Positions 30,369-55,523 of a DNA stretch of 57,821 nucleotides are shown piece by piece. Made by a program: the position numbers and the translations under genes. The stretch covers positions 1 to 57,821 of the forward strand of contig JANXXP010000187.1 of NCBI GenBank assembly GCA_025350595.1, given 5' to 3'. Origin of the DNA: Bacteroidota bacterium. GTDB lineage: Bacteria > Bacteroidota > Bacteroidia > Bacteroidales > VadinHA17. Under the pieces are notes generated by a model. It was given only the letters and a program-made list of their open reading frames with translations. It searched no databases and was not told the origin of the DNA. How positions within the stretch are numbered: the first letter of the stretch is position 1; every line of letters starts with the position of its first letter.

Positions 30369-31874
30369 ATGAATCGTCAATTTGTACTTTTTCTTGCAAT
30401 GTTGTTTTTTACAGCTGACATATATGCTGAAGAACTGCATATCGGCACTGCTACAGCTGATATTACTCCTAAACTGCCTGTGGCGCTGATGGGGCAGTTC
30501 AACCTAAGGATAGCAGACACAGTAGAAACACCTTTGACAGCCAATGTAATAGCCCTGGAATCAAGGGCTGGCAATCAAACCCTTGATATGGCAATAATGG
30601 TTGCCTGCGACGTTGTTGGAATCCCTGAGAAATTACTTAGAAATGTACGCGATGAAGTACATAAAAAAATACCGGAAATACATGTGGAAAAGATTTTTAT
30701 GACTGCAATACACACCCACACAGCACCGGTTTTAGATAATGACCCTACCTCTTCGTTCAGATATCAGATCCCGAAAAAAGGAGTTTTGCAGGTAGAGGAA
30801 TATGATCTCTTTTTTGTTCAGCAAATAACTGAAGCGATTGTTAAAGCCTGGAAAAATCGTCACCCGGGAAGTGTTACCTGGGGTCTGGGTCATGCAGCAA
30901 TTGCCTATAACCGGAGAGTGGTTTATTCAAAGGCCGTTCCCACTCCGGGTTATTTTTCTAACGGATCAGCACAAATGTATGGAAATACCAACCTTCCCGA
31001 TTTCATAAATCTGGAAGGAATGGAAGATCATGACGTCAATACGCTTTTCTTTTGGGATAATAGTGGCAAATTAATTGCAATGACTATTGAAGTTCCCTGT
31101 CCTGCGCAGGAAGTTGAAAGCCGGTCAGCTATCAATGCTGATTACTGGTATCCTGTCCGGGAGAAGCTGAAGCAGCGATATGGATCTGATCTCTGTGTTC
31201 TCGGATGGATAGGTGCTGCGGGTGATCAATCACCCAGACCGATGTACCGTAAAGCCGCGGAAGAACGAATGATCAAATTACGAAATTTAAACCGGTTGGA
31301 AGAAATAGGCAGACGAATTGTCCTGGCTGTCGAAGAATCGTACGAAACTGTTAAGAATGACAGGCATGACAATGTACAATTGACCCACAGGGTGGAGACA
31401 CTTGCGTTACCGATGCGTTTGGTGACAGAGCAGGAATATGAATTCTGCAAATCAGAACGTGATAAAGCATCGGCAGAAATGGCTGCAGACTCGTCAAAGG
31501 CAAATGATGTTCTGGCTCGAATGACATGGAACAGGGGTGTTGTTAACCGCTTCGAAAAGCAGAAAACTGATCCCAGTCCAAAAATGGATGCAGAGATTCA
31601 CATATTACGTATCGGAGATGTTGTTATCTGTACAAATCAATTTGAACTTTTTACAGATTACGGGATCCGGATACAGGCCCGAAGCAATGCGCTGCAGACA
31701 TTTGTCATCCAGCTGGCAGCAGGGACAGGTTCATACCTCCCTACTGAAAAGGCTCTTAAGGGTGGAGGATACAGCGCTGTTATACAAAGCGACGTAGTTG
31801 GTCCTGAGGGGGGTCAGATATTGGTTGACAGCACTGTAAAACTGATCAATGAAATGTTCGTTAGCGAAAAGTAA
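30369..31874 (+). CDS. Neutral/alkaline ceramidase-like hydrolase 1
   Basis: A 501-residue secreted protein resembling the N-terminal catalytic domain of neutral/alkaline non-lysosomal ceramidases, which are zinc amidases. A signal peptide ends near D-I-Y-A-E. The domain starts with I-G-T-A-T-A-D-I-T-P. The zinc-site motif I-H-T-H-T-A-P is at about residues 116-122, and G-A-A-G-D-Q-S-P-R contains Ser288 at the place of the nucleophile in the ceramidase G-D-V-S-P-N motif. The C-terminal Ig-like domain of true ceramidases is missing (501 against roughly 650-700 residues). It starts 4 bp after GH3. It is closest to the protein at 53979, with an extra ~10 residues after N-R-R-V-V-Y. Similar proteins in Bacteroidota PULs have unknown substrates; an amide- or ester-linked group on a glycan is as likely as ceramide. 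Confidence 0.8.
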   Translation: MNRQFVLFLAMLFFTADIYAEELHIGTATADITPKLPVALMGQFNLRIADTVETPLTANVIALESRAGNQTLDMAIMVACDVVGIPEKLLRNVRDEVHKKIPEIHVEKIFMTAIHTHTAPVLDNDPTSSFRYQIPKKGVLQVEEYDLFFVQQITEAIVKAWKNRHPGSVTWGLGHAAIAYNRRVVYSKAVPTPGYFSNGSAQMYGNTNLPDFINLEGMEDHDVNTLFFWDNSGKLIAMTIEVPCPAQEVESRSAINADYWYPVREKLKQRYGSDLCVLGWIGAAGDQSPRPMYRKAAEERMIKLRNLNRLEEIGRRIVLAVEESYETVKNDRHDNVQLTHRVETLALPMRLVTEQEYEFCKSERDKASAEMAADSSKANDVLARMTWNRGVVNRFEKQKTDPSPKMDAEIHILRIGDVVICTNQFELFTDYGIRIQARSNALQTFVIQLAAGTGSYLPTEKALKGGGYSAVIQSDVVGPEGGQILVDSTVKLINEMFVSEK

Positions 31875-31918
31875 AAATTTGTTCTGCTTACTAAAAACGG
31901 GATTAATAAACACGCCAT

Positions 31919-33283
31919 ATGAAAAATGATAAAAACAACCTGACCGCTGCATTCGTCGGCTTCGGAGAGGTTAATTCTCCGCAACAATTAATTAAATCAA
32001 AATGCTTAAAGGCACTGGAAGAGGTCAAATCTCTGGGGATTAAAATCATAACCACAGACCCGGTTACTGATGATCCCAATGGAGTTGATGTCAGAAGAGC
32101 AATTGCTGACCTTCAAAAAGGGGATTTTGATTTACTGATCATCTGTCTTGCCGGATGGATTCCATCCCATGCAGTTATTTCTATCACAAAGGAATTTAAG
32201 TGTAAACCAATGATCTTATGGGGCCTTACCTGTGATATTGAAAATGGCCGCATTGTCACTGCTGCACCTCAGGCCGGGACAACAGCCCTTCGAAAAGTTT
32301 TTCAGGATCTGGGGTACCGGTTCAAATATATTTATAATATCATTGGAAATCCCTCTCCATTGGACAAAATACTAAGTTTTGCTCTTGCAGCCGGTGCCGT
32401 AAGATCTATAGAAAATACTAAAGTTGGAATGATGGGCTTCCGGGATATGAAACTTTATAATACTCTTTATGAGGGGCTCTCCCTGAAATCAAAAATCGGA
32501 ATCGAAATTGAGTTTTTTGAAATGCTGGAAATGCTTCAACTTAGTGAAAAAACACAAGAAATCGAAGTTACCGCCTTATTGGATAAAATTAAAAGGGAAT
32601 GGGATTTCGAGAAACCAGCTGATGATAATTTCCTTAAGCAGGGTATTCGCTATTATCTGGCAGTAAAGAAAATTGCCGAAGAAAACCTGTTCGATGCGAT
32701 TTCTTTGAAAGATGTTGACGGGATGAAGAAGATATTAGGTTTTCCACCTGCAATGATTTTTATGTTGCTATCAGATGAAATTAAGTTATGCACAATTCCT
32801 GAAAATGATGCTATGGGTGCTGTAACGCAATTGATTGTAAAACATATTACAGGGCAATGTGCGGCATATCTTGAGTTTTATGAATTTTTTGAGAAGAGTG
32901 TCCTTATGGGCGTGCCTGATTTTGTACCGGCCGAAGTTGTAAACGGGAGAGTGAAAGTAACACCTGCTGCTTTTGGCAATATCAGCGGTGGACTCCTGAA
33001 TATATCAACATTAAAAACCGGTTGTCTTACAATGGCGCGGTTGTCAAATACCGGAGATAAGTATACCATGCATATCTGTACCGGTGAGGGGAAACTAAAA
33101 TCGTGGGAAGAAGCTGGATGGGATTACCCTGCTCCACAGCTTCCCAGTCTGGAAATTTTCCTTGATGTTACTGTTGAAGATTTTGCACAAAAAGTCTCAG
33201 GTCAGCATTATATGATTGCATACGGGAACCATCTGCAAGCCTTATCCGATTTCTGTTTCATAAAGGGTATAGAAGTTATTTAG
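31919..33283 (+). CDS. L-fucose/L-arabinose isomerase-like protein (cytoplasmic)
   Basis: A 454-residue protein with the fucose/arabinose isomerase fold and no signal peptide. The N-terminal half carries Rossmann-like segments (A-F-V-G-F-G-E-V-N; D-L-L-I-I-C-L-A-G-W-I-P-S-H). The C-terminal half has E-N-D-A-M-G-A-V-T-Q, where isomerases place metal-binding acids, and G-Q-H-Y-M-I-A-Y-G-N-H near the end, as in the sugar-binding part of the family. It is too divergent to call FucI or AraA. The next gene, a PfkB-type kinase, starts 8 bp after its stop. Isomerisation of a pentose or deoxysugar followed by phosphorylation is the simplest reading (inference). It is also distantly like the Tat-exported protein at 42701. 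Confidence 0.8.
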   Translation: MKNDKNNLTAAFVGFGEVNSPQQLIKSKCLKALEEVKSLGIKIITTDPVTDDPNGVDVRRAIADLQKGDFDLLIICLAGWIPSHAVISITKEFKCKPMILWGLTCDIENGRIVTAAPQAGTTALRKVFQDLGYRFKYIYNIIGNPSPLDKILSFALAAGAVRSIENTKVGMMGFRDMKLYNTLYEGLSLKSKIGIEIEFFEMLEMLQLSEKTQEIEVTALLDKIKREWDFEKPADDNFLKQGIRYYLAVKKIAEENLFDAISLKDVDGMKKILGFPPAMIFMLLSDEIKLCTIPENDAMGAVTQLIVKHITGQCAAYLEFYEFFEKSVLMGVPDFVPAEVVNGRVKVTPAAFGNISGGLLNISTLKTGCLTMARLSNTGDKYTMHICTGEGKLKSWEEAGWDYPAPQLPSLEIFLDVTVEDFAQKVSGQHYMIAYGNHLQALSDFCFIKGIEVI

Positions 33284-33291
33284 TAGAAGAC

Positions 33292-34425
33292 ATGAAGAAG
33301 TTTGATGCTGTTGTTGCAGGATACACTTGTGTTGACATGATTCCTGATTTCAAAAAGACAAATTCGGTTACCAGTTTATCAAACCTTTTTATTCCTGGGA
33401 AATTAATAGAGATCGACGGGATAAATTTTGTGCTGGGTGGAGTCGTACCAAATACCGGATTGGCAATAAACAAATTCAATAAAAAAGTTTTTCTTAATGG
33501 ATTGGTTGGAGATGATGTCATCGGTAAAATTGCAATTGAATGGTTAGATAAATATAATCTTTCGGAGGGAATGTGGACAACAGATAAAGCTGGCACAGGT
33601 TTCAGCATTGTTATAGCTCCTCCGGGTATAGATCGCATCTTCCTGGAGTCACCAGGTTGTAACGAGATATTTGATTCAGGATTTATCAATTTTGATGCTG
33701 TTGCCAAAAGCCGGTTGTTTCATTTCGGATATCCACCGCTGTTAAAACAATTCTATCAGACTGATGGGGATCAGTTAGTCAGACTGTTTTCCAGAGTACA
33801 AAAAATGGGAGTCGTAACTTCCCTGGATTTCAGTCTGCCTGATCCTGAAAGTGAGTCAGGCTGCATTAACTGGCCGGAGGTAATGAATAAAATATTACCA
33901 TACACAGACATCTTTGTTCCAAGTCTGGATGAAGCTATCCAGATTATGAATCCCGGGAAATATTCTGAGCTTTTATCTTCGGTGGCCAGCTCTGAAGTTG
34001 CGGATAAACTGATTCTAAATTCAATAAGGGAGATAGGCAGACAGTTTGTCGGATCGGGGGTTAAAATACTATTAATCAAAGCAGGTCACCTGGGAGCCTA
34101 TCTTCTGACCGGTGATGTCTCATCATTAAATGAGAAGGCGGGTTTGTTACTGGAAACTGATAAATGGAATAATTGTGAGATTTGGTGTAATGCATATAAA
34201 GCTGATCCTATAAAGATAAAAAACTCATCAGGAGCAGGGGATACTGCTGTTGCAGCATTCCTTTCAGCAATCCTTCAGGATGAAAGCCCCGATTCTTCGG
34301 TTAAATATGCAGCCATTGCTGGAAGAAACAGCTTGTATTGCAAAAATATTCATGATGACCTCAGCGACTGGCATGAGATGACAGAGGAAATTAAAGTTGT
34401 TGATAATAAATTAATTAAATTCTAA
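33292..34425 (+). CDS. PfkB-family carbohydrate kinase
   Basis: A 377-residue ribokinase-like sugar kinase of the cytoplasm. The first signature, G-G-V-V-P-N-T-G-L-A-I-N-K-F and G-L-V-G-D-D-V-I-G-K, binds the sugar. The second, N-S-S-G-A-G-D-T-A-V-A-A-F near residue 309, contains the anion hole and catalytic Asp. It is 8 bp downstream of the isomerase-like gene, so the two are almost certainly translated together. It could phosphorylate the ketose made by that protein. There is no FGGY-type ribulokinase in the window. It is slightly longer than the typical ~310 residues because of an insert around residues 225-260. It is followed by a 263-bp gap filled with short repeats. Confidence 0.9.
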   Translation: MKKFDAVVAGYTCVDMIPDFKKTNSVTSLSNLFIPGKLIEIDGINFVLGGVVPNTGLAINKFNKKVFLNGLVGDDVIGKIAIEWLDKYNLSEGMWTTDKAGTGFSIVIAPPGIDRIFLESPGCNEIFDSGFINFDAVAKSRLFHFGYPPLLKQFYQTDGDQLVRLFSRVQKMGVVTSLDFSLPDPESESGCINWPEVMNKILPYTDIFVPSLDEAIQIMNPGKYSELLSSVASSEVADKLILNSIREIGRQFVGSGVKILLIKAGHLGAYLLTGDVSSLNEKAGLLLETDKWNNCEIWCNAYKADPIKIKNSSGAGDTAVAAFLSAILQDESPDSSVKYAAIAGRNSLYCKNIHDDLSDWHEMTEEIKVVDNKLIKF

Positions 34426-34445
34426 GCTGTCGGATGTGGGAAGTA

Positions 34446-34633
34446 GTCATTTGCCTTCGACGTCATTCGGCCGGAGTTTACCCCGTACATCGGGGGCCGT
34501 CATTCAGTAGTCATTAGCGCTTCGGGCGTCATTAATGGTCATTTACGCGTAGTTTATTCCCCACGGCGGGACGCGTCATTTTGACTTCGGAATAACAATT
34601 GAATGACAATGAATGACCATTGAATGACTTCGG
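34446..34633 (+). repeat. Intergenic island of GTCATT/AATGAC short repeats
   Basis: In a 188-bp non-coding stretch GTCATT occurs seven times (starting 34446, 34462, 34499, 34510, 34528, 34538, 34575) and its complement AATGAC three times (34602, 34612, 34623), with GACTTCGG twice (34583, 34626). Direct copies occupy the left part and inverted copies the right part, so the RNA or single strand could fold back on itself. The block also holds GC-rich patches unlike its surroundings (for example CCGTACATCGGGGGCCG). It separates the kinase from the aminotransferase. Confidence 0.75.
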
Positions 34634-34688
34634 ATTTCTGGCACACTAGTAACTAAAAACGTTAAGATAAACATTCAAATATAATGGT

Positions 34689-36077
34689 ATGAAAAACTTT
34701 AATAAAGTATCAAAGGGATGGTGGAAAGAAAGTGCCATTGGGATTCCTAATCTCATAACTGAAACACCCGGTCCGAAATCTAAGATCATGCACGCAAATA
34801 CTGCAAAGTATATGAAAGGGCTGAGTTCACAGGTAAAATTATTTCCTGTCTGTTTCGAAGAAGGTTATGGCATAACCTTAACAGATGTTGATGGAAATAA
34901 ATACCTCGATTTTTCATCAGGGATTTACGTCACTTCCCTGGGTCATTGCCATCCAAAAATATCAGAAGCGATATCTTATTGGGCAAAAAAACTGATGAAT
35001 GCGCATGACTTTACTACGCCGGTAAAGGAAAAACTGATGGAGAAAATGGCCGGCATTCTCCCTGGCAGATTGAATGCAATTCAATTATATTCCGACGGCA
35101 CAGCATCGGTAGAGGCAGCTATCCGTGCTGCACGTGCCATAACCAATAAGCATGAATTTATTTCAGCCTATCGTGATTTTCATGGAAAGACATTGGGTGC
35201 AGTAAGCTGTGCTCAAATGTACAGGGGCGAGACTTACAGCTATGGACCAACACGTGCAGCGGGCTTTTACATGGTTCCCCGCCCTGATCCCTATCGTCCC
35301 CTCTGGACAAAGAATGATGGCTCAATAGATACGGACGCGTATATCAGATTTTATGAAGATTTTATTAAAGAAGGAACTGTAGGCAATGTAGCTGCATTTG
35401 TTCTGGAGCCTGCACAGGGTTGGGCGGGAAGCATATTCCCTCCTGATGATTTTTTCCCAAAGCTTAAGACGTTGTGTGATAAATATAAGATACTTATTTA
35501 TGATGATGAAGTGCTAGCAGGTATGGGCCGAACAGGTGAATGGCTTACTCTTAATCACTGGGGTGTTATTCCTGATATTGTAACATTTGGGAAATCGTTT
35601 GGCAACGGATTTCCTGTTACAGCAATGGTTGTAAGCGAAGAAAACGGAGGCGCCCTTGAAAAAATTTCTGCATCATCCAGTTATGGAGGAAATCCGATGG
35701 CCTGCGCTGCTGCACTGGCATCCATTGAAGTAATTGAAGAGGAGGATATTCTGCAAAACGTTCGCAATGTCGGAGGTTTTTTCATGAAACGCATGGAAAA
35801 AATGAAAGAGCAACATCCAATTATAGGTGATGTCAAAGGTAAAGGTTTCCTGTTGGGTATTGAACTTGTAAAAGATAAAAAAACAAAAGAACCCTTTGAT
35901 GAAGCCGGGAAACTTGTTTATCAAAAAGCTTTCAGAAAAGGATTGGCCTGGATTCCCGCCGGTCATATTCTCCGTATGTCTCCTCCGCTGATTATGGATG
36001 AAAAATATGCCTCTCAGGGAATGGATATTATTGAAGAAGCAATTACAGAAGTGGAAAAAGAATTTGGATACAAATAG
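34689..36077 (+). CDS. Class III PLP-dependent aminotransferase
   Basis: A 462-residue cytoplasmic enzyme like 4-aminobutyrate/ornithine-type aminotransferases. Motifs in order: D-V-D-G-N-K-Y-L-D-F-S-S-G near residue 71; Y-S-D-G-T-A-S-V-E-A-A for the PLP phosphate; D-F-H-G-K-T; A-F-V-L-E-P-A-Q-G; Y-D-D-E-V-L-A-G-M-G-R-T-G with the pyridine-contacting Asp; and F-G-K-S-F-G-N-G with PLP Lys302. Everything needed is present. It is 3 bp upstream of a Gfo/Idh/MocA gene, suggesting an oxidation-then-transamination pair on a sugar or polyol carbonyl. That pairing is inference. It may do the job of the broken aminotransferase at 23560, although that one belongs to a different subgroup. Confidence 0.92.
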   Translation: MKNFNKVSKGWWKESAIGIPNLITETPGPKSKIMHANTAKYMKGLSSQVKLFPVCFEEGYGITLTDVDGNKYLDFSSGIYVTSLGHCHPKISEAISYWAKKLMNAHDFTTPVKEKLMEKMAGILPGRLNAIQLYSDGTASVEAAIRAARAITNKHEFISAYRDFHGKTLGAVSCAQMYRGETYSYGPTRAAGFYMVPRPDPYRPLWTKNDGSIDTDAYIRFYEDFIKEGTVGNVAAFVLEPAQGWAGSIFPPDDFFPKLKTLCDKYKILIYDDEVLAGMGRTGEWLTLNHWGVIPDIVTFGKSFGNGFPVTAMVVSEENGGALEKISASSSYGGNPMACAAALASIEVIEEEDILQNVRNVGGFFMKRMEKMKEQHPIIGDVKGKGFLLGIELVKDKKTKEPFDEAGKLVYQKAFRKGLAWIPAGHILRMSPPLIMDEKYASQGMDIIEEAITEVEKEFGYK

Positions 36078-36080
36078 ATT

Positions 36081-37235: not shown

Positions 37236-37295
37236 TTGTCTTATGAGCTGAAAAAGACTTTGTTTAATCAATTGCAATCTGTTAAAGAAAATAAT

Positions 37296-38879
37296 ATGAA
37301 GCCAATGATAGAATCAACAGTAAATTTCAGGAATTTCAGTGATAGGAATATTCTGAAATCGAGATCACTTATTGCAATTATGTTGTTAATGATGTTCTGT
37401 TTTACAGGATGTTCTGAAGATAAAAAATTGAAGGATGGAGGTTTACGCATTGGCTGGGCAATTGACGATATTACTCCGGATGGTCCTGCATCATTGTTTG
37501 GTCAATATTATGAAAGAATATCAACAAATGTGCAAAGCCCTCTAAAAATTACTGCATGCGCAATGGAATCTACGGATGAGAAGGGTAACAAAGAACAGGC
37601 AATAATGGTATCGGCAGATCTGTTGCTAATTCCAAGAGCATTGCAGGATTCGGTGAAAATCAGAGTAAAGCCCCAAATTCCTGATTTTGACACAAGAAAG
37701 CTCTTTTTGAATGCAACACATACGCATTCAGCACCTAATCCTGGCCTTGACTGGAAAGTTGATGCAAAACCGGATTCCGGCTATACAAAATTTTTGTCAG
37801 ACAAACTATCGGCGGTGGTTGTCTCAGCCTGGAAAAGCAGAAAGCCGGCCGGAATAAGCAGGAGTTTAGGATATGCAGTTGTTGGTCATAACAGACGTGT
37901 GAAGTATGCGGATGGTACTGCAGAAATGTATGGTGAGACTGACAGATCCGATTTTGTCGGAATGGAAGGGGCCAGTGATCCCGGGGTTGACATGCTATTC
38001 TGCTGGGATTTAAAAAAGAAATTGACCGGGATCATTATTAATGTTTCCTGCCCGGCGCAAGTTACCGAAGCAAAATACTATGTTTCAGCAGATTACTGGA
38101 GCGAGGTCAGAAAGGATCTTATTTCAAAGTACTCTAAGGACCTTTATGTTTTGTCTCAGGTCGGTGCTGCAGGTGATTTATCTCCCCGCGATCTGCCTCG
38201 GGGTTATAAAGCTGGTGAGACCAATATGTGGGATATTCCTGGAATAGTAGAGATTGGAAGGAGGCTGACCCAGCTGATTGATGCAGCTTATCCTGAGGCA
38301 ATGAATAACATTCAAACCGCCCTCGCATTTAAGCATACAGTCCTGAATATTGACCTTCCTGTAAGAAAAGTGACAGAGGATGAGTACAAAAAAGCTTTAA
38401 AAATAGTTAATGAAATACGTTCCAGGGAACCTAAAGATTCAAATTCTCCAAATACAGCATGGAATCGATTCCTGAAGGAATTGCACGATAATGAAAAGAT
38501 AAAGGGATATGGCCCCTGGGATAATAAAGAGTCTGATTATGGCCGTCTGAAAATAAATGAGAGGGTTTTAAATATTTATGCAAATCAGGATTTACACCCT
38601 CTATATAATTTGGAGCTACATGTAATTCGTCTTGGGGATGTGGCAATAGCTTCCAATCCTTTTGAACTATATGTGGATTATGGATTTGCGATAAAAGGGA
38701 GAAGCAAAGCCAAGCAAACCTTTGTGGTTCAGTTAAGCGGAGATTACGGGGATTACCTGCCTACAGCAAGAGCTATTCCGGGAGGCCAGTACAGTGCTTT
38801 AGTTTCTGTTATTGGCCCAATAGGGGGTCAAATGCTGGTCGACACGACAGTGAGTCTGATCAATCGAATGTGGAAGTAA
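37296..38879 (+). CDS. Neutral/alkaline ceramidase-like lipoprotein 2
   Basis: A 527-residue member of the ceramidase-like group. An in-frame TTG at 37236 exists, but the ATG at 37296 gives a normal lipoprotein leader ending in C-F-T-G-C. The catalytic domain begins R-I-G-W-A-I-D-D-I-T-P. The zinc motif is A-T-H-T-H-S-A-P, and the motif around the putative nucleophile reads G-A-A-G-D-L-S-P-R with Ser296. A longer insert near residues 360-430 (G-P-W-D-N-K-E-S-D-Y) distinguishes it from copies 1 and 4. It is more like the copy at 52528 (shared F-G-Q-Y-x-E-R-I-S). It follows the Gfo/Idh gene and precedes the interrupted GH20-like gene by 11 bp. The natural substrate is unknown. Confidence 0.8.
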   Translation: MKPMIESTVNFRNFSDRNILKSRSLIAIMLLMMFCFTGCSEDKKLKDGGLRIGWAIDDITPDGPASLFGQYYERISTNVQSPLKITACAMESTDEKGNKEQAIMVSADLLLIPRALQDSVKIRVKPQIPDFDTRKLFLNATHTHSAPNPGLDWKVDAKPDSGYTKFLSDKLSAVVVSAWKSRKPAGISRSLGYAVVGHNRRVKYADGTAEMYGETDRSDFVGMEGASDPGVDMLFCWDLKKKLTGIIINVSCPAQVTEAKYYVSADYWSEVRKDLISKYSKDLYVLSQVGAAGDLSPRDLPRGYKAGETNMWDIPGIVEIGRRLTQLIDAAYPEAMNNIQTALAFKHTVLNIDLPVRKVTEDEYKKALKIVNEIRSREPKDSNSPNTAWNRFLKELHDNEKIKGYGPWDNKESDYGRLKINERVLNIYANQDLHPLYNLELHVIRLGDVAIASNPFELYVDYGFAIKGRSKAKQTFVVQLSGDYGDYLPTARAIPGGQYSALVSVIGPIGGQMLVDTTVSLINRMWK

Positions 38880-38890
38880 TATAATTGTTA

Positions 38891-40615
38891 ATGAAGGGCA
38901 ATCATTTTGTCATTTTGTTCAGCTTATTATTGGGATGCCTGGGCTGTACCCCGGCAGGCACATACAGATACGTTCAGGTATCTCCTCCTGGTCAGGCAAG
39001 TTTAATAATGAAGCATACAGCTTCAATTTTTGCTACCCGGATAGCTGAGCATAGCGGAGCCAGGGTAGTTGATGGAAATTCTAGGGCCCTAAAAGTTGTT
39101 CTAAGAATAGATCAGAATATCGGTAAGGAGGGATTCAGAATAGAGGATGGGGATGGAGGAGTAAAAATTACAGGCAATGATGAACGGGGGCTGCTCTATG
39201 GTGTGGGTAAATTCTTACGTACATCCAGCTACAACAAGTATGGTATAGAACCGGGGAAGTGGAGAGGTGTCTCTGTCCCCGAAAAACCTATACGGGGAAT
39301 CTATTTCGCTACCCACTTCTACAATTATTACCAGACTGCACCCATAAAGGAAATTGAAAGCTACATAGAAGACCTTGCCCTCTGGGGTACCAACAATATC
39401 ATGATGTGGTTCGACATGCATCATTTCAAGGATGAGAATGACCCTGAAGGGATGGTGTTTCTGAATCGTCTCAGGCAAATTGCCAATGCTGCCCGCGAAG
39501 TGGGTATGGGTGTATCATTTACTATGACTGCCAATGAGGGGTATGGGGAGAGTCCTGAGGAACTACGTGTTAAACTTGGTGGATCCAGGGGAGGAGTTTA
39601 TTTTACTGATATATGTCCGAGCGTCACGGGGGGTCAAGAGTACATTGTAAAAATCCGGACCAACTTTTTTAACCGCATAAAAGACCTTCAACCGGAATTT
39701 GTTTGCATATGGCCTTACGATCAGGGTGGTTGTGGTTGTAAAGAGTGTATGCCTTGGGGTTCCAATGGTTTTATCAAAATATCAAAAATACTCTCAAAGC
39801 TGACAAGACGAATGCTACCAGGCTCAAAAATCATTCTTTCCACCGGGGATTTCGATGCCATCGAGCGGAAGTCCCTTAACGAAGTGCTGGCAAAGGACAA
39901 AAGCTGGATCGACGTAATACTTTAAGAGCATGCGGATGAGAGCTACAATGCAGGTTACGAATCCGCACCCGGTAATCTTCCTGTGGTGCGATTTCCCGAA
40001 ATAAGCATGTACAACACCTTCCCCTGGGGAGGCTTTGGGGCCACTCCAGTTCCAATGCAAATCAAAAAATCCTTTGATAATAAATTTGGTAAGTATGTAG
40101 TAGGTGGATTCCCATACTCGGAGGGCATATTTGAGGACATCAACAAGGTGGTTTGCGGTCAGTTGTTTTGGGATTCCAGCCAGCCTCTTGACAATATTCT
40201 AAAGGAATATGCCAGCTACGAGTTTGCCTCAGAATTTGCCGACAGCCTTGTGAGTGTGATACATATACTCGAGCAAAACCACCATTGGCGTTGGTGGCCG
40301 GAGATGCTAAATGATGTAAAGCTCACTTTAGACTGGTTCCCCTGTAAAGGTGCTAAATTACAGGAAGATCCGGGAGCAGAGCATGGTTACACTATCATGC
40401 AGAGTGTTGATAGAAAACTTCCAGACCGGGTAAAATCCTCATGGCGCTGGCGTACCCTTTATATCCGAACCATGTTGGATGCTGAGCTCAAGGCTAACGG
40501 CGGATCTCCTAATGAAAATTGCAATGAGGGATTCAGAGAGTTGGCAAAAATATATCACACTTCAGCTAAATCTGACCCTTGTTTAAGACCGCCTGTTAAA
40601 GGGGCGGGGTATTGA
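38891..40615 (+). pseudogene. GH20-domain/DUF4838-like glycoside hydrolase lipoprotein, interrupted by TAA
   Basis: The full frame would give 574 residues. A lipoprotein leader ends L-L-G-C-L-G-C. A short alpha/beta domain like the N-terminal domain of GH20/GH67 enzymes (V-K-I-T-G-N-D-E-R-G-L-L-Y-G-V-G-K) follows, then a TIM-barrel-like part (W-G-T-N-N-I-M-M-W-F; M-T-A-N-E-G-Y-G; W-P-Y-D-Q-G-G-C-G-C-K-E-C). The Cys-rich segment recalls DUF4838 and alpha-glucuronidase-like proteins. A TAA at 39923-39925 (codon 345) breaks the frame, which then continues in the same phase (E-H-A-D-E-S-Y-N) to the stop at 40615. One substitution explains it. Flanking genes on both sides are intact, so this is an isolated lesion or a sequence error. 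Confidence 0.72.
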
Positions 40616-45376: not shown

Positions 45377-45398
45377 CCATAATAAAAGCATTAATTTA

Positions 45399-45432: not shown

Positions 45433-45478
45433 GTTTTTTATGAGATTTTTTCTGCATAAATTCGATTATGTTAATAAT

Positions 45479-47074
45479 TGAAGTTTCGCAAGTAAGAAAA
45501 AGTTAAGATAATGACATAAAAAAAGCAATGGGAATTTTCAGATATCTGTGAATTTCAGTATATTTAAAGTGACCAAACAATAAATAACTGATCCCAATGC
45601 TTAGTAATAAAGGTACAAATATTTTCTCTGAGATTAATAGTTTTTTTCCGGAGAATGATAATAGAAAAGCAATTAATAGCATAATGGATATTGCCCGGCA
45701 TCTGAAATTAAACGGTAAATTTTTGTCAATTGAGAGTAATAACAACTGCAAGTTCACACGGTTACAGGTGTTACAGCTATTATTGCTATTTCCTTTATTC
45801 ATGGTCAAAAACGCTTTTCATTATTCTGAATCCATTCTCTTTAAGGTTCTCTCATGCAAGAAGGATGTTTTCTACCGCTTTATGGCTAATAGTTCTTTGG
45901 ACTGGAGACAGATCTTGTACAGGATCAATCTGCAGTTGATCGGGAAAATCGCAGTCAGAGCCGATTCCTGCAGTGGCAAGGATCCTGTTTGCCTCATTGT
46001 TGATGACTCTGACTTGCCCAAAACCGGCAAAAAGATCGAGAGAATAGGTCGGATATTTTCTCACGTGACTCACAGCTCCATTCTCGGCTTTAAGGCTCTT
46101 TTTCTTTGTCGCACTGATGGCAAGACTCAGACCGTTCTGGACTTCTCGCTTCATGGTGAAGAAGGGAGCCGGCCGGAAAAACCTTACGGGATGACCAGGG
46201 ACCAGCGTCAAAAGCAGTACCACAGGGAGCGCAAGGGAACAGAGGCCGTACAGGAGAGGATTGAAGAGTACACGCAAAAGAAAACCCAGAAAGCTATAGA
46301 CATGGTCAGAAGGGCCATCAAAGAAGGGATACGTTTTGATTATCTGCTCTCTGACAGTTGGTTTACCTGTAGCGATATAGTGAGGTTTATCAAATCCAGA
46401 CATGCCAGGTGTCATTTTCTTAGTATGATCAAAATGGCCAAAACCAAGTACCGTTATGAAGGGAAGATGAGAAGTGCCAAAGAGATGGTAAAGCTTCTTC
46501 AGACAAGGAAGGAGATCAGTTACAGCCGACGTCTGAGGTCTTACTACGGGCAGGCGGAAGTGGAACTCTTCGGCATAAAGGTTAAACTCTTCTTTTGCAG
46601 ACGAACGAGAAATGGAGACTGGAGTGGACTGCTGACCACCAACACTAAACTTGATTTCTTCGAAGCCTATCATATTTATTCAATGAGATGGTCCGTCGAA
46701 GTATTTTTTAAGGAAGCCAAGAGCCTGCTTGGACTGGGGAAATCCCAATCCAGAGATTTTGCCTCCCAGATAGCCAGTATCTCCATCACGGTGCTCCAAT
46801 ACAACATTCTTGGAACTGTCAAGCGGTTTAAATCCTATGAAACCATCGGAGGACTTTTCCATCAAGCTACTGATGGCGTTGTTCAGCTCTCGGTTACAGA
46901 ACGAATATGGGGAATCCTTCAGGAACTGGTCAGGATAATAGCCGAGGCATTCCAGATCGACGATGAAAGAGTCATGGATACCCTCATTAACCGTAGTGAA
47001 ACTTTTAAGCATTTTATAAATCTTGATAACCTCGAACTAAAGCAAGCGGCTTAAAATCACTTGCGAAACTTAAA
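45479..47074 (+). mobile_element. IS4-family insertion sequence, complete, with inverted repeats and target duplication
   Basis: Terminal inverted repeats: AAGTTTCGCAAGT at 45481-45493 and its exact reverse complement at 47059-47071 (13/13). One or two further matching bases sit outside a single mismatch. The direct repeat TTAATAAT flanks the element at 45471-45478 and 47075-47082, a 7-8 bp target duplication (one base is ambiguous between repeat and IS end). The element is about 1.6 kb and carries one intact transposase gene. A perfect inverted repeat and intact target duplication suggest a recent insertion. It sits between operator C and the susC2 leader, in the same orientation as the PUL genes. 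Confidence 0.9.
45597..47054 (+). CDS. IS4-family DDE transposase
   Basis: A 485-residue transposase filling the IS. The first catalytic Asp lies in C-L-I-V-D-D-S-D-L-P-K-T, the second in L-L-S-D-S-W-F-T, and the Glu in the IS4 signature Y-S-M-R-W-S-V-E-V-F-F-K-E-A-K, which fits Y-(2)-R-(3)-E-(6)-K. The N-terminal ~110 residues are helical and basic, as expected for end recognition. The stop lies 5 bp before the right inverted repeat. The gene is intact. A long minus-strand frame overlaps it but is a shadow. Confidence 0.95.
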   Translation: MLSNKGTNIFSEINSFFPENDNRKAINSIMDIARHLKLNGKFLSIESNNNCKFTRLQVLQLLLLFPLFMVKNAFHYSESILFKVLSCKKDVFYRFMANSSLDWRQILYRINLQLIGKIAVRADSCSGKDPVCLIVDDSDLPKTGKKIERIGRIFSHVTHSSILGFKALFLCRTDGKTQTVLDFSLHGEEGSRPEKPYGMTRDQRQKQYHRERKGTEAVQERIEEYTQKKTQKAIDMVRRAIKEGIRFDYLLSDSWFTCSDIVRFIKSRHARCHFLSMIKMAKTKYRYEGKMRSAKEMVKLLQTRKEISYSRRLRSYYGQAEVELFGIKVKLFFCRRTRNGDWSGLLTTNTKLDFFEAYHIYSMRWSVEVFFKEAKSLLGLGKSQSRDFASQIASISITVLQYNILGTVKRFKSYETIGGLFHQATDGVVQLSVTERIWGILQELVRIIAEAFQIDDERVMDTLINRSETFKHFINLDNLELKQAA

Positions 47075-47205
47075 TTAATAATCCAGAGAGAGTTTTTTTA
47101 ATCTTCTTTTGACCTTTAATTATTCAAAGCATCCGGAGAAGTATAAATTAAATAATATTGAGTTTAAATCTTAAAGATCTTGCCTATGCAAAAATTTATA
47201 AAAAG

Positions 47206-47241
47206 ATAAAAAGGGGAAAATAGTTTACAGCTATTTTCCCC
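47206..47241 (-). terminator. Minus-strand intrinsic terminator in the susC2 leader (possible antisense RNA end)
   Basis: GGGGAAAATAG (47213-47223) and CTATTTTCCCC (47231-47241) form a perfect 11-bp stem with a 7-base loop. On the plus strand no T-tract follows, but an A-rich run precedes the stem. Read on the minus strand, the stem is followed at once by TTTTTATCTTTTTA, the layout of an intrinsic terminator. It would end a transcript running leftward from the susC2 5' region. Antisense small RNAs in susC leaders are known in Bacteroides; applying that here is inference. Confidence 0.55.
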
Positions 47242-47328
47242 CGCATTAAGTCCAGGTTAATTACCAATCACACCCGGTATTGTACAACGGGTAATCATGT
47301 TTAACTCTAACTAATATCTTAAAAAATT

Positions 47329-50300: not shown

Positions 50301-50577
50301 TGAAAACTCCGCAATGAATTCATTTTTAATTGAAGATGGCTCATTTCTGAAATGCAGATCATTAATAGTGGGATATACATTGCCAACTTCTGTTGTTGAA
50401 AAAGTTAAGATACAGAAATTAAGGCTATATATCCAGATTATGAACCTGTTCCAGATTACAAAATACAGTGGATTGGACCCCGAAATACCAGGTACATCGC
50501 AAACTTTTGGAGTAGATCTGGGAAACTATCCGAACAACCAGAAGCAATATCTATTTGGTGTTAATCTGTCATTTTAA
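47329..50577 (+). CDS. SusC-like TonB-dependent outer-membrane transporter 2
   Basis: A 1082-residue glycan importer. A leader with one hydrophobic helix (residues ~20-36) is followed by a carboxypeptidase-regulatory-like domain (V-K-G-T-V-T-D-E-K-G-N-S-L-T-G-V-T through F-V-G-M-S-D), the TonB-box-like L-N-E-V-V-V-T-G-Y, a plug with I-Y-I-R-G-L-S-S-F and V-L-K-D-A-G-A-A-A-I-Y-G-V-N-G, and the beta-barrel to a final aromatic residue (V-N-L-S-F). The sequence is only distantly like SusC1, so the pair probably takes a different oligosaccharide. A 255-bp leader with two hairpins lies between the IS and the start. The partner SusD starts 26 bp after its stop. Confidence 0.95.
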   Translation: MKKEIVPYFSPWEKSKILLILKLSTILMVVFSLSLSAKGAGSLKENLQQGTVKGTVTDEKGNSLTGVTVIVKGTTNGTLTDASGKYTLNNVPKNATLVFSFVGMSDQEVLSNGQMAIDVILKEVVTQLNEVVVTGYTAQRKKDIIGAVSIADMKTLKSIATGSGVVALQGQVPGLNIINNGSPGSASQIYIRGLSSFGENRPLVLVDGVAENLDQINSSEIESVQVLKDAGAAAIYGVNGSNGVIIVTTKKGKAGAPLVTYDSYTGVQMPISGNPFNLMNSQDWWNLQVATRPNEYSGPMPDYMYRAPGGQRSWAFEGDPAVDPSKYVFDPSNSNNNYIIGKVNKSGTNWFQAAFKPAWRTNHILSVSGGTEKGRYLFSLNYLNENGTLIETYLKSYSARINTDFNVGKHIRIGENVNLYYFSNNGYSNTGEGTVINRIVSMIPLTPVQDISGIQYWGTFATPTVGNNSVNPVYMQKTLYNNRNNNIIIRGNVYAEVDFLNHFTARTSFGGSTTNAYNVNFTPINYTDATSYASPNSLGESSNYDLYEIWTNTLKYDNTFGKHKLTVLGGSEYVHYLGRALYGSRQDFFLSDFSYLILPNGQKQITNSSGAYENALFSLFGRLDYSYNNKYLLGVTVRRDGSSRFGADSRYGVFPSVSLGWRLSEEAFMKNISWINDLKIRASYGSSGSQANVDNANAFTLFGTSLYRSYYNITGQANTNTPGYYPSRFGNSKTGWEKDIITNFGIDATILNNKLQLSAEIYKKAISGLLFPQPLPSTAGGATPPSINIGDVNNKGFELSANYRSSINDLNFTIGGNITHYINTIVSIPGAQYFDVSSDTRFGVYQRNEVGHSIGEFYGYKIERLFQSDADVAASPTQQDAQPGVFKYADLNGATYEDGKPDGKIDPNDRTFLGSPHPKFTYGINLGLTYKNFDFLMNFFGSYGNKVMNEVKSYTYFSYFRWNVNNDILNQWSPKNTSSNVPKYLSSSSFSENSAMNSFLIEDGSFLKCRSLIVGYTLPTSVVEKVKIQKLRLYIQIMNLFQITKYSGLDPEIPGTSQTFGVDLGNYPNNQKQYLFGVNLSF

Positions 50578-50603
50578 TTTACTAATAGTTAAAGCATTAG
50601 ATC

Positions 50604-52385
50604 ATGAATAAAAGATATATAAAAGTAATTTATGCAATAAGTTTGGTATCGGTGATAACGTTTATTGCATGTAAAAAATCATTAGAGATTGCGCCAGTAG
50701 GTGCCACTACCAAATTAAATATGGCAACTAAAAGCGGCATTAATGGTTTATTAATAGGTGCTTATCGTGGCCTTATTATGGATGGCACCATCTGGTGCAA
50801 CTGCAGCAACCAATCCTATTCATTACTTGGTACGAATGAGTTGGCGTGGGGTTTATCAGGTTTACCATATCTGTCTATGTTTGAACAGCATGTGATAGGA
50901 CCGACAAACAGCTTTTTAATCGATGACAGATGGCGTATTTGTTATGATGGAATCCAACGTGCAAATTTTATATTGCGTTTGTTACCGGATGTGCCTCCAA
51001 ACCAGCTCACTGAAACGCAAGCCACACAAATAAAAGCTGAGGCAATATTTATAAGGGCAATATTGCATTTTGAATTAGCGAAGGATTTTCTCAATGTGCC
51101 TTATGTAGATGAGTCCGTGACTTTCGACGCTCAAAATTATAACGTACCTAATACTGAATCGATATGGCCGAAGATAGAAGCAGATTTTCAATTTGCTGCA
51201 GATAACCTGGCTCCGACAAATGCTTACAGAGGCAGGGGAAACAGCTGGGCTGCAAAATGCTTTTTAGCTGAGGTATATATGCAACAACATAAGTATGTCA
51301 ATGCATTACCTTTGCTTACAGATGCTATAAACAATGGAGTAACTGCAGGTGGGCAAAAATATGCATTGAACAAATTATACTATGATAATTTCGATCCCGC
51401 AACTAAAAACAGCACTGAATCAGTATTTGCAGTTCAATTTACTGTAAAAGACGGCTCATATGGCTCAAATGGTCAATTAGGTCTATGTTTGGTTTTACCA
51501 CTGGTACCTGGGTGTGAGGGAAGTGGCCTGGGTGGTGTATCCAGGAGTACGATAAATACCTTTAAAACAGATGCGGTTACAGGCTTACCTCTTTTTGATA
51601 CATACGATGATTTTGATTTACCGGATAATGCATATATAGCTGACAGTAATCCATTCACTCCTTATGCAGGAACACTTGATTCAAGGTTAGATAATAGTGT
51701 AATGCGCAGGGGAATTCCTTTGCTTGATTGGGGATTGCCTATAAGTGCCTGGTATTATAATAAAGTAGTATCAAGTCCTTACAATATGATAAAGTATTTT
51801 TTCAGGAAATCTCAAAAGGATATACTCTCAGAAACTATAGGTTGGGATTATGTCACCTCTGCAAATTATGACATGATTCGTTTTGCGGATGTACTGTTAC
51901 TAGCGGCAGAATGCGAAGTGGAAGCCGGAAGTCTGGCAAATGCTGAAGCATATGTAAACCAGGTCAGAGAACGTGCAGCTGATCCTGACGGTTGGGTAAA
52001 AACCTATATTGATGATAACGATCCGTCTAAAGGATTTACTGCTACCCCCGCTGCAAATTACAAGGTAGGTCTGTACTCAGGCCAGTTTAGTAAGGGACAA
52101 GACTATGCCCGTAAAGCAGTTCGTTTTGAAAGAAGGCTTGAGCTGGCATTTGAAGGGCATTATTTCGGTGATCTACAACGCTGGGATAATGGCACAGGTT
52201 ATATGGCCGATCAAATAAATCATACTATTGATCATGAAAATTTACAACCTGCTGAACACGCACCAAGCCTCAAGAATGCAAAATTCATCAAGGGGAAACA
52301 CGAAATATACCCTATACCTCAGGCACAAATTGATAATAGTAAGGTAAATGGAACATCAACACTGGTACAAAACCCCGGGTATTAG
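50604..52385 (+). CDS. SusD/RagB-like glycan-binding lipoprotein 2
   Basis: A 593-residue lipoprotein, partner of SusC2. The lipobox is T-F-I-A-C (Cys near residue 23). Conserved helices: E-A-I-F-I-R-A-I-L-H-F-E-L-A-K-D-F in the TPR scaffold, F-A-D-V-L-L-L-A-A-E-C-E-V, and the C-terminal V-R-F-E-R-R-L-E-L-A-F-E-G-H-Y-F-G-D-L-Q-R-W signature. It ends in the typical L-V-Q-N-P-G-Y. It is separated from the next gene by a strong intrinsic terminator, so susC2-susD2 form their own transcription unit. Sequence divergence from SusD1 agrees with a second ligand. Confidence 0.95.
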   Translation: MNKRYIKVIYAISLVSVITFIACKKSLEIAPVGATTKLNMATKSGINGLLIGAYRGLIMDGTIWCNCSNQSYSLLGTNELAWGLSGLPYLSMFEQHVIGPTNSFLIDDRWRICYDGIQRANFILRLLPDVPPNQLTETQATQIKAEAIFIRAILHFELAKDFLNVPYVDESVTFDAQNYNVPNTESIWPKIEADFQFAADNLAPTNAYRGRGNSWAAKCFLAEVYMQQHKYVNALPLLTDAINNGVTAGGQKYALNKLYYDNFDPATKNSTESVFAVQFTVKDGSYGSNGQLGLCLVLPLVPGCEGSGLGGVSRSTINTFKTDAVTGLPLFDTYDDFDLPDNAYIADSNPFTPYAGTLDSRLDNSVMRRGIPLLDWGLPISAWYYNKVVSSPYNMIKYFFRKSQKDILSETIGWDYVTSANYDMIRFADVLLLAAECEVEAGSLANAEAYVNQVRERAADPDGWVKTYIDDNDPSKGFTATPAANYKVGLYSGQFSKGQDYARKAVRFERRLELAFEGHYFGDLQRWDNGTGYMADQINHTIDHENLQPAEHAPSLKNAKFIKGKHEIYPIPQAQIDNSKVNGTSTLVQNPGY

Positions 52386-52460
52386 ATAAATGGCATAATT
52401 TTCGTCTTTTAATAATAAAGGGTTAACTTATCAGACTTTATATTGTTATTGTTTTTGAAT

Positions 52461-52498
52461 TGTCTGTTGTTCTCCAAAAGGAACAACAGACATTTTTT
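52461..52498 (+). terminator. Intrinsic terminator after susC2-susD2
   Basis: TGTCTGTTGTTC (52461-52472) pairs perfectly with GAACAACAGACA (52481-52492) across an 8-base loop, followed directly by six T (52493-52498). This is the clearest intrinsic terminator in the window. It separates susC2-susD2 from the ceramidase-like gene at 52528, which must have its own promoter or depend on readthrough. Confidence 0.9.
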
Positions 52499-52527
52499 CC
52501 GGGTATTCAAACAATTTAAAATGCGAT

Positions 52528-53913
52528 ATGAAAAACTATTTTGTCCATTTATTAATAATTCCGGTGATTCTTTGTTCATGTATTTCAAAAAGGTCATCAG
52601 GAGTCTCAGAAGTGCAGGGAATCAGGATAGGATGGGCATCCACCGATATCACACCCAATAGACCGGTCCAGTTATTTGGACAATATGGTGAGCGTATCTC
52701 AGAGGGAGTGCATGACCCTCTTTATGCTACGGCAATGGCAATTGAGTCAGCATCCGGTGACATGCAGGCGATAATGGTTTCAATGGAGATTCTTGAGGGC
52801 ACATTCAATCTGCAAAAGGATTTGAGAAATTTACTTTTCGGACAGCTTCCCGGTTTCAACCTCAGGAATCTGATTATAAACGCGACCCACACCCATACGG
52901 CACCTTATCCATTTACTCCGCCCGATAGAAGCCAGCCAGCCGGTTTGATGACAGGAGAGGAATACCGTAACCAGATATTGCTGCCCAAATTAACCGAAAT
53001 TGTTGTTGCGGCCTGGAAAAACAGGACAGCAGCAGCAGTAGGATTTTCAAAGGGCATGGCTGATGTAGGGTACAGCCGTATATGTGTCTACCAGGATGGA
53101 CACAATGTAATGTTAGGGAGTACGGTAAACGATAAAGGTTCCCCTTTCGTGGGGTTTGAAGGTGGAAATGATCTATCGCTGAATCTGATGTACTGCTTTG
53201 ATACAGGTGGCAATATCAAGGGTATAGTTATAAATATCGCCTGTCCTGCCCAGGATGTAGCCAGTTTATCTGTTGTATCGGCAGATTTTTGGGGTGAAGT
53301 ACGGAGCCAGCTGCAGGTCAAATATCCGGGGATTTTTATACTCGAACAATGCAGCGCTGCAGGGGATCAGGGGCCGTGGAATTTGTCGGCCGGTGAAATG
53401 GGGGATACCAGTTGGAGCAGACGAGCAACTCATGCCAACAGAATTGTCAATGAGGTCAGCAGGTTGTTCACTACTGCTCAAAGCTGCCGCAAGTCATCTG
53501 CCGAATTAAGTAACCAGGTCCGGGACTACACCTTAACCCAAAAAGCATGTTATGGCATCACTCCATTTACCTGGGAACTACACACAACAAGGATCGGTAA
53601 TGCTGTTTTTGCCAATAATCCCTTTGAGCTTTATATCGGCTATGGAAATGCAATCAAAGCTCAGAGCATAGCGGCCCAGACATTTCTTGTGCAGCTTTCA
53701 GGAACAGCCAGTGACGATTTTTTAATTAATTATACTTATAAGGGAAATTATTTATATGTTGGTCAATTAGCCGGATATTTACCGACGGCCGAAGCTGTTT
53801 CCGGGGGCGCATATGGGGCACAGGATGAAAATGGAAGAGTTGGTCCGGCCGGAGGTACTCAACTGGTAAGCCAAACGGTTTCACAAATCAACAGCTTGTT
53901 TACCGGCAGGTAG
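52528..53913 (+). CDS. Neutral/alkaline ceramidase-like lipoprotein 3 (nucleophile position is Gly)
   Basis: A 461-residue member of the ceramidase-like group. A lipoprotein leader ends V-I-L-C-S-C. The domain starts I-R-I-G-W-A-S-T-D-I-T-P, and the zinc motif is A-T-H-T-H-T-A-P. The segment matching the ceramidase G-D-V-S-P-N motif reads S-A-A-G-D-Q-G-P-W, so the nucleophilic Ser is replaced by Gly282. The usual N-R-R following the second zinc region is S-R-I here. If the group works by the known amidase mechanism, this copy should be inactive or use another residue. It starts right after the terminator that follows SusD2 and lies 65 bp before copy 4. Confidence 0.78.
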   Translation: MKNYFVHLLIIPVILCSCISKRSSGVSEVQGIRIGWASTDITPNRPVQLFGQYGERISEGVHDPLYATAMAIESASGDMQAIMVSMEILEGTFNLQKDLRNLLFGQLPGFNLRNLIINATHTHTAPYPFTPPDRSQPAGLMTGEEYRNQILLPKLTEIVVAAWKNRTAAAVGFSKGMADVGYSRICVYQDGHNVMLGSTVNDKGSPFVGFEGGNDLSLNLMYCFDTGGNIKGIVINIACPAQDVASLSVVSADFWGEVRSQLQVKYPGIFILEQCSAAGDQGPWNLSAGEMGDTSWSRRATHANRIVNEVSRLFTTAQSCRKSSAELSNQVRDYTLTQKACYGITPFTWELHTTRIGNAVFANNPFELYIGYGNAIKAQSIAAQTFLVQLSGTASDDFLINYTYKGNYLYVGQLAGYLPTAEAVSGGAYGAQDENGRVGPAGGTQLVSQTVSQINSLFTGR

Positions 53914-53978
53914 CCTATTAAAAATTAATATATTTCTTTAACATCATTTCTACATATTAAGCTAAAATATATATTATT

Positions 53979-55523
53979 ATGGAAAAAGAACAAGAAAATA
54001 CGAAGATTACTGTGCCAGTGCAAATCAGTTCAAGACGTGATTCCATAAGACGATTCAAGAAAATCTCAGTTGGCCTCTTTCTCATCACTATGTTATGGGT
54101 TATGAACTTACAGGCAGCGAAATTAAAAATCGGTACCGCTGTAGCCGACATAACTCCGGCACTTCCTGTGGCCTTATCCGGGCAATTCTACTTACGAATA
54201 GCAAAGACAGTGGAGACACCTTTGACAGCTAATGTAATAGCCCTGGAATCACGCGACGGTAACCGTTCTCTCGATGCAGCGATAATGGTCTCCTGCGACT
54301 TAGTAGGTATCCCAACCGGAACTCTTAAAATGCTACGTGATGAAGTGCATAAACAAGTACCGGAATTAGATGTGAGAAAAATCTTTCTGAATGCAATTCA
54401 CACTCACACAGCCCCGGTATTAGAGAATGACTTAGAGTTTACATTCAAATATCCAATTCCAAAAAAAGGAGTTTTGCAGGTTGAAGACTATAATATTTTC
54501 TTTGTTCAGAGAGTAACCGAAGCAATTGTTAAGGCGTGGAAAAATCGTCGCCTCGGAAGTGTTTCATGGGGTCTTAGTCATGCAGCTGTTGCATACAATC
54601 GAAGAGCTGTTTATGCTGACGGATCAGCCAAAATGTATGGGAATACCAAGCTTCCTGAATTTTTAAATCTGGAAGGGATGGAAGATCACGACGTCAATAT
54701 CCTTTTCTTTTGGGATAAAAGTGGTAAATTAATTGCTATGACAATAGATGTTCCCTGTCCAGCACAGGAAGTTGAGAACCGATCAGCTGTTAATGCTGAC
54801 TACTGGCATCCTGTTCGTGAGAAGTTAAGACAACGCTTTGGCCCTGACCTTTGTGTCCTTGGGTGGATAGGTGCTGCAGGCGATCAATCACCCAGGCCGA
54901 TGTACCGTAAGGCTGCTGAAGAACGGATGATCAAACTTCGTAATTTAAGCCATTTGGAGGAGATCGCCAGGCGTATTGACCTGGCGGTTGAAGAAGCTTA
55001 CGAAACTGTTAAGGATGATCGTTATGTCGATGTACAATTAATCCACAGGGTGGAAACCTTGAGTTTACCGATACGTTTGGTTACAGAACAGGAATATATA
55101 CTCTGCAAAGGAAACCTTGATAAAGCTGCAACACAGATTGCTGCAGACTCAACGACGGCAAACGAGGAGCTGGCTCCTATGGCATGGAACAGAGCAGTTG
55201 TTGAACGTTTCGAGAAGCAGAGAACGGATCCACATCCAAAATTGGATGTGGAGTTACACGTGCTTCGCATCGGGGATGTGGCAATCTGCACCAATGAATT
55301 TGAACTTTTTACCGACTATGGGATTCGAATTCAGGCACGGAGCAATGCATTGCAGACATTTGTTATCCAGCTGGCTGGACCCGGATCGTACCTGCCTACT
55401 GAAAAGGCTGTTAAGGGTGGAAGTTATAGTGCTGTTGTACAAAGTAATCTGGTAGGACCGGAAGGCGGTCAGATTTTAGTTGACCGTACTGTTGGACTGA
55501 TCAACAGTATGTGGCCAAAATAA
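53979..55523 (+). CDS. Neutral/alkaline ceramidase-like hydrolase 4
   Basis: A 514-residue protein closely related to copy 1 at 30369: long identical stretches such as E-T-P-L-T-A-N-V-I-A-L-E-S-R, L-N-L-E-G-M-E-D-H-D-V-N and S-P-R-P-M-Y-R-K-A-A-E-E-R-M. It has an N-terminal extension of about 35 basic and polar residues before the hydrophobic leader segment (S-V-G-L-F-L-I-T-M-L-W-V-M), so the exact start is uncertain, though no later ATG gives a full leader. The zinc motif is A-I-H-T-H-T-A-P and the putative nucleophile Ser304 is in G-A-A-G-D-Q-S-P-R. It is probably a recent duplicate, separated from its twin by about 23 kb. Confidence 0.8.
   Translation: MEKEQENTKITVPVQISSRRDSIRRFKKISVGLFLITMLWVMNLQAAKLKIGTAVADITPALPVALSGQFYLRIAKTVETPLTANVIALESRDGNRSLDAAIMVSCDLVGIPTGTLKMLRDEVHKQVPELDVRKIFLNAIHTHTAPVLENDLEFTFKYPIPKKGVLQVEDYNIFFVQRVTEAIVKAWKNRRLGSVSWGLSHAAVAYNRRAVYADGSAKMYGNTKLPEFLNLEGMEDHDVNILFFWDKSGKLIAMTIDVPCPAQEVENRSAVNADYWHPVREKLRQRFGPDLCVLGWIGAAGDQSPRPMYRKAAEERMIKLRNLSHLEEIARRIDLAVEEAYETVKDDRYVDVQLIHRVETLSLPIRLVTEQEYILCKGNLDKAATQIAADSTTANEELAPMAWNRAVVERFEKQRTDPHPKLDVELHVLRIGDVAICTNEFELFTDYGIRIQARSNALQTFVIQLAGPGSYLPTEKAVKGGSYSAVVQSNLVGPEGGQILVDRTVGLINSMWPK

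Follow-up and report, generated by a model that had tools for sequence, protein, structure and literature searches.

We analysed a stretch of 57,821 nucleotides, hereafter the window, from a Bacteroidota bacterium of the VadinHA17 lineage (assembly GCA_025350595.1, contig JANXXP010000187.1), in which four genes set among sugar-metabolism genes encode proteins resembling neutral ceramidases. A sequence-only reading had ascribed two motifs to these proteins, and both are real: each of the four open reading frames (ORFs) is intact and carries HTHTAP or HTHSAP together with AAGDQSP, AAGDLSP or AAGDQGP. The four belong to a distinct, cross-phylum clade whose zinc site, as judged from alignments, differs from that of the ceramidases. 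They are assigned below to three types (A, B and C) according to their position in the clade tree:

30369..31874, + strand: protein A (A-type), 501 residues, with a Sec-like leader (by eye) and residues H115/H117, P245, Q247, E426 and Y456
37296..38879, + strand: protein B (B-type), with a lipoprotein-like leader (FTGC, by eye)
52528..53913, + strand: protein C (C-type), 461 residues, with a lipoprotein-like leader (LCSC, by eye), the first gene past a SusC/SusD pair
53979..55523, + strand: protein D (A-type), 514 residues, with a Sec-like leader (by eye), directly after C

The ORF of protein B (37236-38879) opens at a TTG at 37236, and the ATG at 37296, which was the start given in the sequence-only reading, is the better fit to a leader. 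Judged by eye, all four have export leaders, and the clade as a whole looks exported. Proteins A and D are 75% identical, while A shares 41% with B and 36% with C, and protein C has glycine (GDQGP) in place of the motif serine found in A, B and D.

Likeness to the neutral ceramidase family (PF04734) is detectable but faint in single sequences, with matches for A (E 3.4e-7, 29.7 bits), B (5e-4, 19.3 bits) and C (1.4e-7, 31.0 bits) and none for D at E 0.01. All four thus lie below the curated Pfam cut-off of 32.1 bits, which weighs against counting them as ceramidase family members, and none of them has an NCBIfam match at E 0.01. Among 48 members of the clade, four pass E 6.5e-8, which is about the PF04734 cut-off; the profile built from these 48, by comparison, retrieves the ceramidases of Pseudomonas aeruginosa (2zws, 2.2e-9) and human (4wgk, 4.4e-7). 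An AlphaFold model of protein A built on the alignment of 48 relatives (mean pLDDT 94, pTM 0.92) gave Foldseek probability 1.0 for neutral ceramidases alone (2zws at E 1.4e-25; the next row at 0.41), and structure comparison returned 2zws (Z 33.5), 2zxc (Z 32.0) and 4wgk (Z 31.1) ahead of a next entry at Z 4.1. The weak rows beneath the ceramidases in both searches (xanthine dehydrogenase, NylC and similar) were treated as noise. Because the PF04734 matches, the 48-member profile and the structural match of A to 2zws all point the same way, the likeness is one of homology rather than chance. Over 402 aligned residues the model and 2zws differ by a root-mean-square deviation of 3.4, and model residues 19-501 align to residues 1-491 of the 646-residue 2zws chain. 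As modelled, then, protein A is a complete ceramidase catalytic domain without the C-terminal domain, whose absence had been predicted from sequence and is borne out for A by a match that stops at residue 491. We take the clade in general to be made up of this catalytic domain only.

The clade shares with neutral ceramidases the catalytic-domain fold, the HTH motif, the GD loop and three of four zinc ligand equivalents, and it departs from them at the fourth. The ceramidase ligands, which we take to be H97, H204, E411 and Y448 (2zws numbering, the letters being counted off alignments), correspond in protein A to H115, P245, E426 and Y456, and a merged alignment and a profile-profile alignment agree in placing the canonical zinc histidine over P245. 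This second zinc histidine is present in 18/18 canonical-type relatives and in 0/122 clade members; with nine near-genome sequences added, the clade has proline in 116, threonine in 14, serine in one and histidine in none (n=131). Two residues further on, Q247 is glutamine in 131/131 clade members, a position held by V, T, D or F in the canonical type. The remaining ligand positions are retained throughout the clade (H115 in 130/131 with one gap, H117 in 131/131, E426 in 131/131, Y456 in 130/131 with one gap). R182 is essentially invariant across phyla, E216 is invariant in the clade and alanine in 11/18 canonical-type relatives, and W260, R300, H340 and H411 are near-invariant in the clade and not in the canonical type. 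That the rest of the site is so nearly invariant across phyla suggests to us that the enzyme is active and that its metal site has changed. A divergent member at locus L119 has TTAQ in place of CPAQ and HSHTSP in place of HTHTAP.

The canonical-type relatives are bacterial PF04734 paralogues that belong to the same fold family by profile-profile comparison with the clade (probability 100, E 8.7e-42). They occur at L006 (11824-13242), at L012, L013, L014 and other loci, and in the window's own genome (L001, contig C198:52131-52739), where the protein keeps the zinc histidine and exceeds the Pfam cut-off. They form a separate branch, the split from the clade having support 1.0 in both trees when taken as an unrooted split (in a re-rooted tree the clade-side node has a value of 0.055). 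Their number (n=18) includes close relatives, as do the loci, so that the counts are not independent events; of five loci tried for such proteins (L001, L099-L102), the ORF finder recovered those of L100 and L001 only. We consider the distinctness of the clade across phyla to be solid. A scan of public genomes, of which the best 80 of 295 matches represent 78 loci (28/78 at least 21 kb long, and possibly lacking records very near the window's genome), places it in Bacteroidota, Verrucomicrobiota, Planctomycetota, Acidobacteriota and others, with 118 distinct members above 400 bits, a count made without the window's own loci and without fragments scoring below that value. At closer range the distribution is patchy: at E 1e-60 the family was found in 2/395 genomes of the class and the same 2/395 of the phylum, the window's own included, and 9/116 relatives carry it, again including the window's genome.

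Runs of two to four family genes are a common arrangement, and their order is conserved. The tree resolves A-type (25 tips, support 0.954), B-type (5 tips, 0.895) and C-type (12 tips, 0.855) groups, and in 8/8 runs containing both, the C-type gene lies ahead of the A-type (L005, L006, L020, L022, L026, L044, L046 and the C-D pair of the window, where protein A, likewise A-type, is encoded 20 kb upstream of C). Three of these loci (L020, L022 and L026) repeat the run SusC-SusD-C-type-...-A-type-DUF7133-AP_endonuc_2, with one unlabelled ORF of 186 residues in the L022 run, and the window's second SusC/SusD pair with C and D resembles a short form of this unit. The genome of L028 likewise has, at L125, a SusC/SusD pair 57-58% identical to that of the window followed by a C-type gene.

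Other genes of the island are as follows:

27950..30364, + strand: GH3 enzyme, ending 4 nt before A; the nearest PDB entries are of beta-xylosidase and isoprimeverose type
31919..33283, + strand: isomerase-like protein with sub-threshold matches only, to the sugar isomerases SftI and AraA; 78-81% identical in L006, L007 and L028
33292..34425, + strand: PfkB-family sugar kinase; 68% identical in L006, 62% in L028
34689..36077, + strand: class III aminotransferase; 88% identical in L006, 91% in L028
36081..37235, + strand: Gfo/Idh/MocA oxidoreductase, adjoining protein B; 79% identical in L006, 77% in L028
47329..50577, + strand: SusC-like TonB-dependent transporter, encoded ahead of C and D; 54% identical in L017, 58% in L125
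50604..52385, + strand: SusD-like lipoprotein; 52% identical in L017, 57% in L125
55576..57612, + strand: GH51-like enzyme, after D

With its SusC/SusD pairs, GH51 and GH3 enzymes and an AraC regulator, the window resembles the polysaccharide utilisation loci of Bacteroidota. The repeated units of L020, L022 and L026 differ from such loci in that the labelled genes after SusC/SusD are ceramidase-fold paralogues, DUF7133 and AP_endonuc_2, with no glycoside hydrolase among them. From the isomerase-like gene to the Gfo/Idh gene, the window carries a module that L006 and L028 share at 62-91% identity, and protein B or its counterpart adjoins the Gfo/Idh gene both in the window and in genome G796 (L117), which also holds L006. 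The nearest solved structures to the aminotransferase are an archaeal enzyme of 4-aminobutyrate aminotransferase type (7vno) and an Ala/Ser racemase (9wqz).

The sequence-only reading had tied the family to GH51 enzymes and had looked to genome comparison for a conserved link, and this is not what we find. Besides the GH51-like gene after D, the window has six matches to PF06964 (GH51-type), near 11384, 16259, 20910, 22928, 27257 and 42103, and the region 9947-57612 holds 7/9 of all such matches in the genome. Across the 78 loci, a GH51 model match occurs in one; among 22 family-carrying genomes of Bacteroidota, five have PF06964 above the cut-off and one has it near the family; and among the nine carriers in the set of 116 relatives, GH51 is near in three (the window's genome, G796 and G769). 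Genome-wide, GH51 is present in 9/9 carriers and in 19/20 near genomes lacking the family, a comparison for which 29 of the 116 relatives were searched. Some carrier contigs are short, and in G807, represented by two contigs of 4.9 and 6.4 kb, an absence of GH51 says little. We therefore reject GH51 as a defining partner on these three counts: the link is local.

The neighbours that do recur are enzymes of other kinds. In a tally over 74/78 usable loci (169 operonic and 484 other ORFs; no family gene was recovered from L047, L060, L070 or L077, where a longer antisense frame seems to have displaced it, and one L025 family gene was lost likewise), operonic exceed other occurrences for AP_endonuc_2 (19 vs 7), DUF7133 with cytochrome c (14 vs 5), Gfo/Idh (13 vs 8), canonical-type PF04734, which thus sometimes shares an operon with the clade (11 vs 4), and SusD (6 vs 2). 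AP_endonuc_2 and Gfo/Idh enzymes are tied to oxidative sugar routes. Two single-ORF fusions link the family to sugar enzymes: at L078 (7319-9619) an AP_endonuc_2-like domain (30.3 bits, just under the cut-off of 31.1) is joined to a family domain, and at L029 (9992-12556) the family is joined to a SASA carbohydrate-esterase domain (35.1 bits, cut-off 24.8). Two candidate partners were set aside, namely sulfatases, which are not enriched (2 operonic vs 11 other), and GH3, which is not significant over all loci (3 vs 3), GH3 homologues lying near the family in L005, L006, L028 and L044 and also in L125, L126 and L127.

Taken together, these observations lead us to favour, tentatively, a reading in which the clade comprises exported metallo-hydrolases. 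Their substrate would be a sugar-derived molecule brought in by SusC/SusD, and the bond cut in it would be an acyl bond, most probably an amide. The link to sugars is likely; as to the bond, we infer an amide. The suggestion of an amide- or ester-bearing sugar substrate had been made from the window alone, and it stands as a reasonable one given the ceramidase-like fold and the sugar island, although the family-wide GH51 linkage on which it was built is not supported. In the clade, proline or threonine has replaced the second zinc histidine, with the invariant glutamine two residues further on; under the favoured reading, a metal ion held by the histidine, glutamate and tyrosine ligands, and perhaps by this glutamine, would activate a water that cuts the acyl bond of the imported molecule, the product then being taken up by the downstream sugar enzymes. 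If the bond is an amide, the reaction would be an N-deacylation, with ceramidase chemistry kept on a polar substrate. We favour the amide because the aminotransferase and Gfo/Idh dehydrogenase module stands beside the genes in the window and in two relatives (L006 and L028), and because the known chemistry of this fold is amide cleavage and some members have deacetylase genes close by. These last include polysaccharide-deacetylase homologues in six loci, four of them operonic (L012, L013, L014 and L030 are among the loci), and the run at L119 (4477-15332), where the neighbours of the divergent member are PIG-L deacetylase, DegT aminotransferase, DHDPS-family, aldo/keto reductase and CBM9 genes, and which looks like amino-sugar catabolism. 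That paralogue types are kept together suggests that they may act on different acyl groups or sites of one substrate. A broader proposal, which we hold with rather more doubt, is that the clade represents a new carbohydrate-active metalloenzyme family with a ceramidase fold, in which glutamine or another hard donor stands in for the zinc histidine, and in which, in Bacteroidota, two to four co-inherited paralogues act on one SusC/SusD-imported, sugar-derived substrate; several further phyla have relatives of these proteins.

Several observations weigh against the favoured reading. The serine of GDxSP (S288 in A) is variable in the clade, being serine in 79/122, threonine in 21 and valine in 15. 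The seed families of the operon tally were chosen from recurrent clusters of the same, related loci, so its p-values are descriptive. The polysaccharide-deacetylase loci comprise five of Sphingobacteriales type and one of Agriterribacter, and are thus lineage-specific, and the DegT and PIG-L genes of L119 have no counterpart elsewhere among the examined loci; with amine genes confined to some lineages, an amine theme is rejected as a general one. Other loci point to sugar acids, which would fit a lactonase too: a GntP-like permease lies beside the clade in L012, L014 and L030 and IlvD with SDR in L012, L013 and L030, and SMP-30/gluconolactonase occurs in two of 67 aligned ORFs (the 70 unlabelled operonic ORFs less three that were short or overlapping).

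Given these sugar-acid genes, cleavage of a lactone or ester is nearly as open as cleavage of an amide. In its fuller form this alternative, which we regard as unlikely though the best of the rivals, holds that a sugar is oxidised in the periplasm by a DUF7133-cytochrome c protein and that, ahead of uptake, the ceramidase-fold protein opens the resulting lactone or takes off an O-acyl group. The DUF7133 protein would act here as a dehydrogenase, and the operonic enrichment of DUF7133-cytochrome c and AP_endonuc_2, the permease and IlvD-SDR genes and the SASA esterase fusion are all consistent with such a route; the window, however, has no DUF7133 match, the near-relative loci L117-L128 have none by blastp labels, and ceramidases with this fold cut amides. 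It is less probable still, and we think improbable, that the changed ligands changed the reaction itself, giving a non-hydrolytic sugar metalloenzyme (of isomerase, lyase or retro-aldol type) that acts with AP_endonuc_2 and Gfo/Idh enzymes in oxidative sugar cleavage. The AP_endonuc_2-like fusion of L078, the operonic Gfo/Idh genes, the clade-specific invariant (E216, Q247) and near-invariant (W260, R300, H340, H411) residues and the variable GDxSP serine would all suit such an enzyme, but the ceramidase fold is the only one clearly matched.

Genuine ceramidases or sphingolipid amidases, acting for example on plant glycosyl inositol phosphoceramides as had been speculated from the sequence, are very unlikely: the fold, the HTH and GD motifs and three of four ligand equivalents are those of ceramidases, but 131/131 clade sequences lack the second zinc histidine, all four window proteins fall under the Pfam cut-off, A lacks the C-terminal domain, and the recurrent neighbours are sugar enzymes. 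Neither the neighbours nor the active site thus support a sphingolipid target. Least probable of all, by our estimate, is that loss of the zinc histidine ended catalysis and left pseudoenzymes or binding proteins. One ligand is indeed gone, the genes are SusC/SusD-linked and two of the proteins have lipoprotein-like leaders (by eye), but the essentially invariant H115, H117, R182, E426 and Y456 argue across phyla for chemistry.

If the favoured reading is correct, the sphingolipid-amidase fold would have a large and mostly unannotated branch that is set among sugar genes and whose metal site is altered; genomes in which such genes are labelled 'ceramidase' would be misread as those of lipid degraders; and new acyl-sugar or amino-sugar chemistry would be testable in Bacteroidota, Verrucomicrobiota and Planctomycetota. 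Among the titles and abstract openings listed in our literature searches, none concerned the clade or a ceramidase-fold protein acting on sugars.

Some further features of the window deserve mention. Amid the GH51 genes lies a gene for an 862-residue protein (16835-19423) with no Pfam match at E 0.01, and a DDE-type transposase ORF (45597-47054) stands between two gene groups. Four genes of the window are broken (23560-24867, 24920-25711, 25830-27775 and 38885-40615) and the ceramidase-fold genes are intact. The broken class III aminotransferase, SDR and GH20b/GH67-N-like genes have in-frame stops (TAA, TAG and TAA, respectively) and the broken GH51 gene has a frame change. Stop-codon reassignment was rejected for the broken genes, as the in-frame stops are TAA, TAG and TAA, and all three stop codons occur among the ends of 30 window ORFs.

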